The notes beneath the pieces were generated by a model. It saw nothing but the letters and a program-made list of their open reading frames with translations, was not told where the DNA came from and did no database searches. From Nitrospirales bacterium (GTDB taxonomy: Bacteria > Nitrospirota > Nitrospiria > Nitrospirales > UBA8639), in contig BQIW01000010.1 in the NCBI GenBank assembly GCA_021604105.1, positions 1 to 64,000 of the forward strand: a stretch of 64,000 nucleotides of DNA, given 5' to 3'. Below are positions 41,726 to 46,241 of this stretch, one piece after another (the stretch's first letter is position 1; every line of letters starts with the position of its first letter). Both the position numbers and the translations under genes were made by a program.

Positions 41726-41907
41726 AACTTAATAGGCTACCCTCGCAAGAAAAAATTGTCAAACCTATTCATCAATTTTTGACATTCTGTACATGGGTGG
41801 AAATCTTGCACGAATCGCACCAAAAAGTAAGTGTGTGAAAGAATAAAAAAATATGGTGGGTGGGTCAATAAGAGTGGCTTCTTTCTTCCAGTTGTTGGGC
41901 AAAAATG

Positions 41908-43869
41908 TCACCGATGAGGGTTAACCGGTAGGGCCAGAGTAAAATACCGCCCTCCTTCCGCATGCAATAATCTTTTCCCCTGCAATGTTGTGAGGATATC
42001 CGTGAGTGGCACGATGATGTCTTCCTCCGGTCCAGGAAAGGAGCAAACCTGCAAGGCTTTGCGAATTTGTTCGATGGACTTGGGTTGCTCATTGCAAAAT
42101 TCTAGGATGAAGGCTTGCGGTCCTTCAAATCGTTCACTGGTCGGAGTTAGGCCTCTCCCATCATAGACGGTGAGATAACTCAAGGCTTTTGCAAAGAAGA
42201 GAAAAGGCCGATTGGAAGAGTGATAACGCTGTTTCCACTCTTCAACCAGTCTGACAAGTTCCTTATAGAGATGTGGAGCGACTTTCCAATCGATTGTATA
42301 CTCAAAATCATAGGCGATTTTGTTGAGATCAACCTGTCGGTCGTCATACACATAGGCATAGGCTAACCCCGGTCCTGTCTGGTGAATGCCATATCGTTCA
42401 GGCCATTTAAAATAAGGACTAAACCGTTCGAGCCAGAGCTTGGCTGTGGATTCTGGCGGTTGGAGGTGGATCAATGAGGGAATGAGGTTGATTTGTTGTT
42501 GGTAATCGGCATCTGTTTCCTGTGGAAAACCCAATAAAATATTCCAGGAGAGGTCAATATTGTAATAACGGCTCCATTTTAAGCATTCGATGTTTTGCAG
42601 TGGGCTGACACCTTTATCCATTTCCTTTAGTTGCGCCAGACTCAAACTTTCGATGCCCGGTTGCATGCATTTAACCCCGCCCTTCGCCAGTGTCTGAATT
42701 TGTCGTTTATTGAGATTGCTTTTCGTCTCCATAAACACGTCCAGATCCACGTGTTCTTGGGCCAGTTTTCCGAAGAGACCGTCTACATATTTCATGTCAA
42801 TAATATTATCGACCAAGCGAAAACGGGTGGTGTCGTAGCGACTGGAAAGATAGTCCAATTCTGAAGCGACCTGAGCGGGATTCTTTGCGCGGAATTCCAT
42901 CGCTTGAGCATTTAATCCGCAAAAGGTGCAATGATGCTTTTCTCCCCACCAGCATCCACGAGATCCTTCATAGAGCAAAATCCGGTTCAATCCGGTAGAT
43001 CCCTGCTTGGCTAATTCCTTGAGCTCTGCAAAATAGTCGTCGTAATCCGGTGGAGGCGTTTCTGCAAACTGTGTATATAGGGTCTCCTGAGGGGTAAAGT
43101 GGATCTGTCCTTCCCTTCGAAAGGCCACTCCGGGAGGAATATCCGTTTCATCGTCTAAAAGGATGCGTTGAACCAATGGAGGAAAGGTGTGTTCACCTTC
43201 TCCGATTACGACGTAATCAATCCAGGGAAATGCCCGAAAATGTTCCAGCCCCATTTCTCCGTCGAAGTTTGCTCCCCCAAAAACGATCCGAACATCGGGA
43301 TAAATGTCCTTGATCAATTTGGCCAGACTTAAACTTGCGATATTTTGATCGAACGTGGAGGTGAAGCCCACCACTTTGAATTGACTCCAATCCACTGATG
43401 TCAGGCACCAGGTTAAAAATTGAGGAGCAAATGATCGGGCAATCTCTTCTAAATGACTGATCGAACAGCTGGCTTCCCGAGCCGTGTCTTCGAAGATGGG
43501 TTTAAACACAATAGGGTATTCCCTGTGTTTCGGGTTGTTCCGAAACAGGAGTGCAGAGAACAGCCATTCGCCAAATAGTCCACGTTTCTCGCACAAGATT
43601 TCATATAAGGGCACCCCGATTTTATGGGCGAACTGGAGATTGAAATGATAGGTTTGGGTACCAATCCCTTGTGCTTTAAGTAAGGATGAGAGGGTCCCTA
43701 ATTGGATCGAGGGAAATCTTGAATAACTAAATGGCATGGTTATCAGGGCGACCTTCGTTCCGAAAGATCGAAAATCGGTGGTGCCCTGATAGGCTGCATC
43801 CTGGGTCCGTTTTGCTTTTGCAGCGACCGGGTGAATCAAAATCGGGCTGGTGGCCATAAGAGCCTTCAA
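41908..43869 (-). CDS. B12-binding radical SAM protein of the RiPP-maturation class (rSAM_ocin_1-like)
   Basis: N-terminal B12-like fold KVALITMPFSYSRFPSIQLGTLSSLLKAQGI and IRIVFGGANFDGEMGLEHFRAFPWIDYVVIGEGE; rSAM cluster motif GCWWGEKHHCTFCGLNAQ (Cx7Cx2C); LGFPQETDADYQQQ. Confidence 0.85.
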   Translation of the reverse strand: MKALMATSPILIHPVAAKAKRTQDAAYQGTTDFRSFGTKVALITMPFSYSRFPSIQLGTLSSLLKAQGIGTQTYHFNLQFAHKIGVPLYEILCEKRGLFGEWLFSALLFRNNPKHREYPIVFKPIFEDTAREASCSISHLEEIARSFAPQFLTWCLTSVDWSQFKVVGFTSTFDQNIASLSLAKLIKDIYPDVRIVFGGANFDGEMGLEHFRAFPWIDYVVIGEGEHTFPPLVQRILLDDETDIPPGVAFRREGQIHFTPQETLYTQFAETPPPDYDDYFAELKELAKQGSTGLNRILLYEGSRGCWWGEKHHCTFCGLNAQAMEFRAKNPAQVASELDYLSSRYDTTRFRLVDNIIDMKYVDGLFGKLAQEHVDLDVFMETKSNLNKRQIQTLAKGGVKCMQPGIESLSLAQLKEMDKGVSPLQNIECLKWSRYYNIDLSWNILLGFPQETDADYQQQINLIPSLIHLQPPESTAKLWLERFSPYFKWPERYGIHQTGPGLAYAYVYDDRQVDLNKIAYDFEYTIDWKVAPHLYKELVRLVEEWKQRYHSSNRPFLFFAKALSYLTVYDGRGLTPTSERFEGPQAFILEFCNEQPKSIEQIRKALQVCSFPGPEEDIIVPLTDILTTLQGKRLLHAEGGRYFTLALPVNPHR

Positions 43870-44210
43870 GAGGAGACAGGAAGATGAAAGGCGCGATCGG
43901 CTTTGGCAGCTAAATAAAAATCACTTTCGGTGAGGCCTTGAATCTTGTGAGTCCAAATTTCTACCTTGCATTTGCCCCAGGCTAAATATATATCAGGGTG
44001 ATGGCCCTCAAGTTCCGCCACATTCCCTACTCGATTAGTAAAAGCCAGGGCATCGGCAAAGTTGTCAAAGGTATAGGTTTTCTCAATATGTCCTTGAGCA
44101 TTGAGCGCCCATCCTGTTTCTAATTGAGCAAGCAGGTCCTGGATTTTTCGAGGTTCCAACGGAGGTACGCCCCCACGACAAGGAACGCATGTGTTATCTG
44201 CTAGACTCAT
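43866..44210 (-). CDS. Pterin-4-alpha-carbinolamine dehydratase (PhhB-like)
   Basis: CVPCRGGVPPL N-terminus and ELEGHHPDIYLAWGKCKVEIWTHKIQGLTESDFYLAAKAD active-site region. ATGA overlap with the rSAM gene. Confidence 0.92.
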   Translation of the reverse strand: MSLADNTCVPCRGGVPPLEPRKIQDLLAQLETGWALNAQGHIEKTYTFDNFADALAFTNRVGNVAELEGHHPDIYLAWGKCKVEIWTHKIQGLTESDFYLAAKADRAFHLPVSS

Positions 44211-44656: not shown

Positions 44657-45217
44657 ATGCCAGTGAATGCTCTGCGAAAACCCGGGGCGAGAATGAGTCT
44701 GCATGAAGCTCTTGAGCGAGTGGAGAAACTCAAGCGGTTATCAGAAAGCAGTAATCCTCATGAGGCGGCATTGGCGGCCATGCGGTTGAAAGATTTTGAT
44801 GTGGAGGTGGCCAGATTTCCCCGCCCCGAACCTGTTGCCGAAGAAGTTTCCCCACCCGAGGACCAGGCTTACCTTAATAAAGTTGTGGAAATACTTGAGG
44901 AAATGCCCATTGTTCCCTACGAAACGTTAGATGAGATAGAGGTAGAACAATCTTCTGATAAATCGAAAGTCAATTGGGATGAACTCCATTTTGCCCTGGT
45001 GAAGAAAGCGCAGCGTATGGGGGCAGATGCCTTGATCCATATTCAATTAAAGGGAACCGCTGAGAAAAAGGTGCTTGGAGCCACGGCATTAAAATATCTC
45101 ACTCCCAAAGAGGTCTTGGAAATTCAACAATCCACGGCATTAGAGGATGCTGAGAAAGCCTACAAGCAGGCTCAAAAAGAGCGGCTTGATGAAGATCTAG
45201 CTCCTGGTATTGGCTAA
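44657..45217 (+). CDS. Hypothetical protein with possible YbjQ/DUF74-like heavy-metal-binding C-terminus
   Basis: 186 aa. HEALERVEKLKRLSESSNPHEAALAAMRL helical N-terminus; RMGADALIHIQLKGTAEKKVLGATALKYL C-terminus. Confidence 0.6.
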   Translation: MPVNALRKPGARMSLHEALERVEKLKRLSESSNPHEAALAAMRLKDFDVEVARFPRPEPVAEEVSPPEDQAYLNKVVEILEEMPIVPYETLDEIEVEQSSDKSKVNWDELHFALVKKAQRMGADALIHIQLKGTAEKKVLGATALKYLTPKEVLEIQQSTALEDAEKAYKQAQKERLDEDLAPGIG

Positions 45218-45545: not shown

Positions 45546-46241
45546 GTGAAGGAAGAGACCATGGCGTACTCAAGTCAGGGTTCATGCAGATTACTGTCAA
45601 GTTGTGGTGTGCTTGGCTGTTGCCACAACTCAACAAAAGGACCAACTGTGGAGAGAGGCAAAATTGTGTCCAAAGTTCCAGCGACTACAACCAGTGTCCT
45701 TGTGTTGACAGTGTGGCTCACGGTAATCCTTTCGGGCTTGGCCCACACAAAAGAGACTGAATTGGTTTCCGTTGGGATACGGGGAGGGATCAATTCTGAA
45801 ACCCTTGGCATTCCGCCGACCGAAAAGGAAGATTTTGAGCAATATGATGTATTTGCTGTGATCGGAACTCCTTGGAGTTGGGATTTTCCCTCTTCTGGAT
45901 GGGATATCCGTTTTATGTTTAATGTGGCCGCCGGGACGTTAAGGGCAGCAGGAGATTCCGGGTTTATTGGAGAGTTAGGTCCCGGCTTTGCATTCACGAA
46001 GTCAAGCTGGAGACTCACCTTCGATATTGGCGGCGGTCCGGCGTATCTGAGCGAGGAGAAGTATGGCCGCCAAGATATAGGAGGACCCGTTCAAATTATT
46101 GGGCACGGCGGCCTTACCTATCATCTTCCCTGGAACGTATCTGCCGGGTATCGATTCCATCATATGTCGGATGCCTCGATGTACGGCAGTAATAATCGCG
46201 GAGTTGATCTACATATGCTCGAACTGAGCTACCGGTTCTGA
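45546..46241 (+). CDS. PagL-like lipid A 3-O-deacylase / acyloxyacyl hydrolase; start GTG 45546 or ATG 45561
   Basis: Beta-barrel pattern ending ...WNVSAGYRFHHMSDASMYGSNNRGVDLHMLELSYRF (PagL His-Ser signature and terminal F). Confidence 0.78.
   Translation: MKEETMAYSSQGSCRLLSSCGVLGCCHNSTKGPTVERGKIVSKVPATTTSVLVLTVWLTVILSGLAHTKETELVSVGIRGGINSETLGIPPTEKEDFEQYDVFAVIGTPWSWDFPSSGWDIRFMFNVAAGTLRAAGDSGFIGELGPGFAFTKSSWRLTFDIGGGPAYLSEEKYGRQDIGGPVQIIGHGGLTYHLPWNVSAGYRFHHMSDASMYGSNNRGVDLHMLELSYRF

Follow-up and report, generated by a model that had tools for sequence, protein, structure and literature searches.

The PCD and rSAM genes

The window, i.e. the whole stretch of 64,000 nucleotides that was analysed, carries two adjoining genes, a gene for a pterin-4a-carbinolamine dehydratase (PCD) followed by a gene for a B12-dependent radical-SAM enzyme, referred to here as rSAM (Table 1). 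Both genes reported in the first-pass annotation are present, on the minus strand, but the ATGA in which start and stop were said to overlap is TTGA in the actual letters, a TTG start over the TGA stop of PCD. The in-frame ATG appears to be the likelier start of rSAM than this TTG, since it lies just past the PCD stop, is preceded by GAAGG, a Shine-Dalgarno-like run, and most rSAM orthologues outside the window's genus align only from about residue 35. The PCD gene is intact, as had been stated, matching PF01329 with 2.2e-30 and keeping the family motif EGHHPD..W...WTHK. The other neighbours, namely TonB/ExbBD-like genes, a LysM transglycosylase, a PagL-like protein, an NAD(P)/FAD oxidoreductase and an HDOD protein, differ from genus to genus, and no further nearby gene of the window appears to belong with the pair.

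Table 1. Features at and near the PCD-rSAM locus of the window
Feature	Position	Strand	Remarks
B12-dependent radical-SAM C-methyltransferase (predicted), TIGR03975	41908..43869	minus	653 aa from TTG 43869; 649 aa from ATG 43857
Pterin-4a-carbinolamine dehydratase (PCD, COG2154)	43866..44210	minus	114 aa; catalytic motif intact; overlaps the TTG start of rSAM
C-terminal domain of rSAM, last 105 aa	41911..42225	minus	winged-helix model; weak PqqD match
In-frame ATG, likelier start of rSAM	43855..43857	minus	8 nt past the PCD stop; GAAGG ahead
Protein of 186 aa without confident family	44657..45217	plus	kept in genera g1, g3 and g5 of the window's family
PagL-like lipid A 3-O-deacylase	45546..46241	plus	PF09411, 3.8e-19

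Family and predicted fold of the rSAM protein

In a profile search, the rSAM protein matched TIGR03975 over the full length of the model (positions 1-606 of 606) with 607.5 bits, twice the cut-off of 281.85, which bears out the earlier call of a TIGR03975-like B12 enzyme; PF04055 (43 bits) and the B12-binding domain PF02310 (32.6 bits, threshold 32.1) were matched as well. The Fe-S motif C-X7-C-X2-C corresponds to Cys302/310/313 (numbered from the ATG), and all three cysteines are invariant in 54 homologues. An AlphaFold2 model generated from these 54 homologues (pLDDT 89.9, pTM 0.88) was compared with known structures using Foldseek, and the top matches were cobalamin-dependent rSAM enzymes: OxsB (E-value 9e-17), TokK (2e-15), TsrM (4e-14), CysS and MgmA (4.5e-12). 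The modelled protein has the fold of the cobalamin-dependent rSAM methyltransferase class, and methyl transfer is its predicted activity.

The last 105 residues are predicted to form a winged-helix domain in the order strand-strand-strand, three helices, strand-strand, and such a C-terminal domain is common to rSAM and other members of the family. The PqqD model, which is RiPP-recognition-element-like, matches it below the cut-off (E=0.0076; seen in 5 of 34 members), and a fold search with the isolated domain gave no significant match. The modelled winged helix and the weak PqqD match are as expected of a putative peptide- or protein-binding domain, an assignment that is not proven.

With the RiPP-maturation C-methyltransferases of TIGR03975 (rSAM_ocin_1), the enzyme of the window shares the full-length match, the B12 domain, the CX7CX2C motif and the C-terminal winged-helix domain. 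In contrast to these, it is accompanied by no precursor, transporter or protease and belongs to a single lineage-core clade that stands beside PCD, a molybdate operon or nxrAB. The second-best NCBIfam match is ApyD, a Tyr C-beta methylase that is likewise of the RRE-containing B12-rSAM type and methylates a RiPP precursor (PMC11117315); however, rSAM scores 69 bits against a cut-off of 750, and ApyD adjoins its precursor in a RiPP cluster.

Distribution and phylogeny

Three samples were used: 296 genomes of the phylum, the whole order Nitrospirales with 236 genomes, 154 of them good ones, and a family sample of 118 genomes. Within the phylum sample, the rSAM orthologue is confined to one order, while homologues in three outside genomes have at most 41% identity. 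Across the order, rSAM was matched in 194 of the 236 genomes, two of these (G200 and G291) by distant paralogues only, and in 135 of the 154 good ones. A hand count of the family sample gave 40/49 genomes in f1, the window's family, 49/57 in its sister family f2, 6/8 in f3 and 0/4 in f40. NxrA, recognised by 1568 bits to subunit A of the Kuenenia nitrite oxidoreductase (NXR; PDB 7b04), was found in f1, f2 and f3 and not in f40, so that the family in which all four genomes are without rSAM is also the one without detected NxrA. UBA2166 is stated to be the only family of the Nitrospirales without NXR, and 140 genes are reported to mark the NXR-bearing members of the order (PMC12342949). f40 fits UBA2166, and f1, f2 and f3 would then be UBA8639, Nitrospiraceae and NS-4. 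The PCD-rSAM pair is also carried by Nitrospira moscoviensis (locus L200).

Counted by hand in the 118 genomes, with G200 taken as rSAM-less, both NXR and rSAM are present in 82, rSAM only in 13, NXR only in 9 and neither in 14. The count is suggestive, but phylogeny and missing NXR contigs act as confounders. Because NXR has several copies and tends to drop out at contig ends in MAGs, as PMC12342949 also notes, its absence from a genome carries little weight. Losses of rSAM are scattered: two end fragments are left in G191 and one fragment in G169, and the PCD neighbourhood is present without rSAM in G204, G050, G208 and G222. Among the genomes that bear NXR, G191 with its remnants, G193 and G204 lack rSAM and G200 has the distant paralogues only; rSAM is therefore not essential for NXR.

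A tree was built from 139 members of the family, drawn from many phyla. In it, all 68 sequences of the studied type from the order group together in a single clade, which has top SH-aLRT support and a stem of 1.45 changes per column; families f1 and f3 are monophyletic. This long-stemmed clade follows the family groupings and represents the vertical descent of a core gene of the order, not a travelling RiPP cluster. Among other NXR lineages, one Brocadia genome contains a family member (L128) that falls on another branch and has a different gene neighbourhood.

Gene neighbours across the order

The context of rSAM was examined in 69 loci of the order, including the window. PCD lies directly upstream of rSAM in 23/23 loci of f1; in the 40 loci of f2, PCD is upstream in 25, a PBP-HTH regulator with a molybdate operon is directly downstream in 6, nxrB is directly upstream in 3 and other genes are found in 6. 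None of the three stands beside rSAM in the 6 loci of f3, and genera g144, g146 and g150 show contexts without a link to molybdenum. Beyond the order, 65 family members were examined for neighbours up to 7 kb away, and none had a PCD there. The two genes had been described as a unit, and this holds: the pair is conserved in relatives and persists through many genera with differing surroundings, which argues that the pairing is not due to chance. Directly upstream of the pair, much of f2 and the f1 genera g6, g137 and g138 carry an unannotated protein of 330-346 aa (L200:5535-6527, L084:6000-7040), which has no Pfam match and is ParB-like by eye.

The molybdate context was found in genera g9, g12, g152 and g153, in which rSAM is directly upstream of a PBP-HTH regulator followed by ModA, ModB and ModC. 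ModA (218 bits) and ModB (228 bits) are both above the NCBIfam cut-offs, and the best match of the regulator, below cut-off, is a molybdopterin biosynthesis protein model. The order nxrA-nxrB-rSAM on one strand was found in G165 (g14) and G341 (g16), and in G239 (g16) the C-terminus of NxrB lies just ahead of rSAM at a contig edge. This adjacency, which comprises three genomes of two genera only, was noticed after the fact; the G341 locus was then chosen deliberately to test it, and bore it out. Between nxrB and rSAM there is a strong GC hairpin with Ts behind it, so that transcription of rSAM at these loci probably relies on read-through or on a promoter of its own. In G125, nxrAB is about 4 kb from rSAM and convergent.

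PCD and its partner

Aromatic-amino-acid hydroxylase (PF00351) was not found in the 118 genomes of the order, with a positive Caulobacter control, which leaves PCD without its textbook recycling partner. PCDs of COG2154 have been described with a role in molybdenum cofactor (Moco) metabolism (PMC3223725). The present case resembles these in that an intact PCD occurs in organisms without a detected hydroxylase, and differs in the pairing with a B12-rSAM, which was not found outside the order. PCD predates the pair, as it occurs without such adjacency in families f40 and f3, and it is retained in genomes in which rSAM was lost. PCD was also considered as a precursor peptide and rejected, since the protein does not extend past the domain at its C-terminus and varies freely there, and the N-terminal CVPCRGG occurs in rSAM-less genomes too.

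Search for a precursor peptide

The first-pass annotation had seen no precursor, transporter or protease nearby, in agreement with our analysis, in which no conserved small ORF was found in or around the pair. A 48-aa ORF over the rSAM stop (41765-41911, minus strand) was rejected as its frame is not kept in relatives. Leaders of the NHLP (TIGR03793) and Nif11 (PF07862) types, for which a genome-wide scan had been proposed, were not found in the window's genome or genus, and substrates of these types were discarded; NHLP leaders are limited to genus g2, and Nif11 was seen in a single f40 genome, which lacks rSAM. Of the three options offered for the missing precursor, a remotely encoded substrate or a role outside RiPPs fits best, and the small precursor by the pair was not found. 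A RiPP cluster in the window's genome is not supported, as rSAM is a lineage-core gene, not part of a sporadic cluster, and no leader of these two types was found.

Two further observations concern RiPPs in these and related genomes. One to seven precursor-like peptides with an NHLP leader above the NCBIfam cut-off are encoded in the g2 genomes G279, G229, G173 and G199 (L214-L217); these are RiPP candidates and do not adjoin the rSAM studied here. Another TIGR03975 unit, consisting of a 586-603-aa protein, an rSAM and a 137-265-aa protein, occurs in Candidatus Brocadia carolinensis (L128:5188-9681), where ABC-exporter-like genes follow, in G200 of the Nitrospira order (L081:8580-12433) and in a Bryobacteraceae MAG (L130), and is possibly a true RiPP-type cluster.

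Substrate of rSAM and possible link to NXR

The explanation we favour, at a probability somewhat short of even, is that rSAM would be a protein C-methyltransferase serving the maturation of NXR or a molybdenum enzyme, comparable to MgmA and Mmp10 for methyl-coenzyme M reductase (MCR). NXR is the leading candidate client on account of the neighbours across genera, i.e. PCD, molybdate uptake and nxrAB. MgmA (TIGR04014, PDB 9ccb) is a B12-rSAM that methylates a glutamine of MCR, with mild effects on growth; in some lineages its gene is found beside the mcr operon, and many methanogens lack it (PMC11796369). rSAM shares with it the B12-dependent fold, the absence from some members of its lineage and the position next to the operon of the substrate, here putative, in some lineages. 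However, the profile match to MgmA is weak (48 bits against 360), and NXR is a molybdenum and not a nickel enzyme. Mmp10, which C-methylates an arginine of MCR, is likewise a B12-dependent rSAM acting on a residue of a large enzyme of central metabolism (PMC8828468), but no sequence or fold match to rSAM was obtained, so this is an analogy only. The loss of rSAM in a few Nitrospirales is compatible with a tuning modification like that of MgmA.

The proposed mechanism would start from SAM and methylcobalamin, which would feed the radical C-methylation of a residue in a client protein and not in a locally encoded RiPP precursor. The client may be held by the C-terminal winged-helix domain, and is most likely a subunit of NXR or an assembly partner of it, methylated during cytoplasmic maturation before Tat export. 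PCD would work in pterin and molybdenum cofactor metabolism, and the two genes may have stayed together on account of serving one and the same molybdenum enzyme. The link to a pterin that had been suspected at first gains some support from this molybdenum cofactor and NXR context, though not as a pterin substrate. rSAM would have arisen, or been acquired, when the Nitrospirales took up nitrite oxidation as a lifestyle, with vertical inheritance from then on. The more specific proposal that Nitrospira NXR carries a C-methylated amino acid installed by rSAM with the help of a dedicated PCD, as a bacterial molybdenum-enzyme counterpart of the MCR methylases, we regard as doubtful. No paper linking radical SAM to Nitrospira NXR was found among those searched, and we know of no modification of NXR.

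A candidate site in NxrA was also considered. Position 883 (G165 numbering), singled out in hindsight among about 1,570 columns, is Val in 26/26 copies from rSAM-positive genomes and Ile in 6/8 copies from rSAM-negative ones; Ile is Val plus one methylene. Strict co-variation with rSAM was broken by a pattern search in the 236 genomes, which found Ile883 in about 20 rSAM-positive genomes, including G027 with several copies and G317 in the only copy listed. In the NxrA copies L222-L271, Val or Ile stands at 883 in the otherwise nearly fixed HHDDK.[VI]RN, sometimes differing within one genome. This failed site counts against a role in NXR maturation, as do the rSAM losses, the presence of nxrAB beside rSAM in three genomes only, the hairpin, and the contexts in f3, g144, g146 and g150.

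That rSAM is an orphan RiPP enzyme, with a short precursor peptide from another part of the genome as the target of its C-methylation, is unlikely. The family name of TIGR03975, the PqqD/RRE-like C-terminal domain and the activity of the related ApyD (PMC11117315) would fit this, but rSAM is near-universal, single-copy and vertically inherited, there is no conserved small ORF by it, and the leaders looked for are missing from the window's genome and genus. In addition, BGCs called by the TIGR03975 rule were judged likely false positives on manual inspection (PMC9426513). We consider it quite unlikely that the substrate is another conserved protein of nitrite oxidisers, such as a cytochrome, an rTCA enzyme or a ribosomal protein, with the molybdenum neighbours being incidental. 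Such a substrate agrees equally well with the distribution and the protein-binding domain, the 140 lineage genes, many of unknown function, offer candidates (PMC12342949), and several rSAM contexts contain no molybdenum genes; it leaves the nxrAB and molybdate operon neighbours in six genera unaccounted for, however.

That rSAM C-methylates a small molecule (either a pterin or the molybdenum cofactor), and that PCD provides or shields the pterin, seems very unlikely. PCD and molybdate uptake do adjoin rSAM, and TokK, OxsB and CysS are among many B12-rSAM relatives with small-molecule substrates, but the closest characterised relatives in the family libraries, ApyD and MgmA, act on peptides or proteins, the C-terminal domain is one found in other family members, and PCD is kept where rSAM is lost. 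Finally, the adjacency of PCD and rSAM may be inherited gene order with no shared function, which would be compatible with any substrate and which we hold to be rather improbable. The persistence of PCD in rSAM-less genomes and, non-adjacent, in f40 and f3 is consistent with this, as is the fact that the pair was not found outside the order; against it, the pair has stayed intact in every f1 locus and in most of those of f2 while the flanking genes changed between genera.

Implications

A family named for RiPPs thus contains a housekeeping-like clade, and a TIGR03975 match is not by itself grounds for calling a peptide cluster. NXR is the enzyme behind most of the nitrite that is oxidised biologically in soils and wastewater. 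rSAM appears to track the nitrite-oxidising lineage, and in six genera its neighbour is nxrAB or a molybdate uptake operon, which makes it a concrete candidate for an NXR maturation factor, and such a role would give vitamin B12 a possible direct part in nitrite oxidation.
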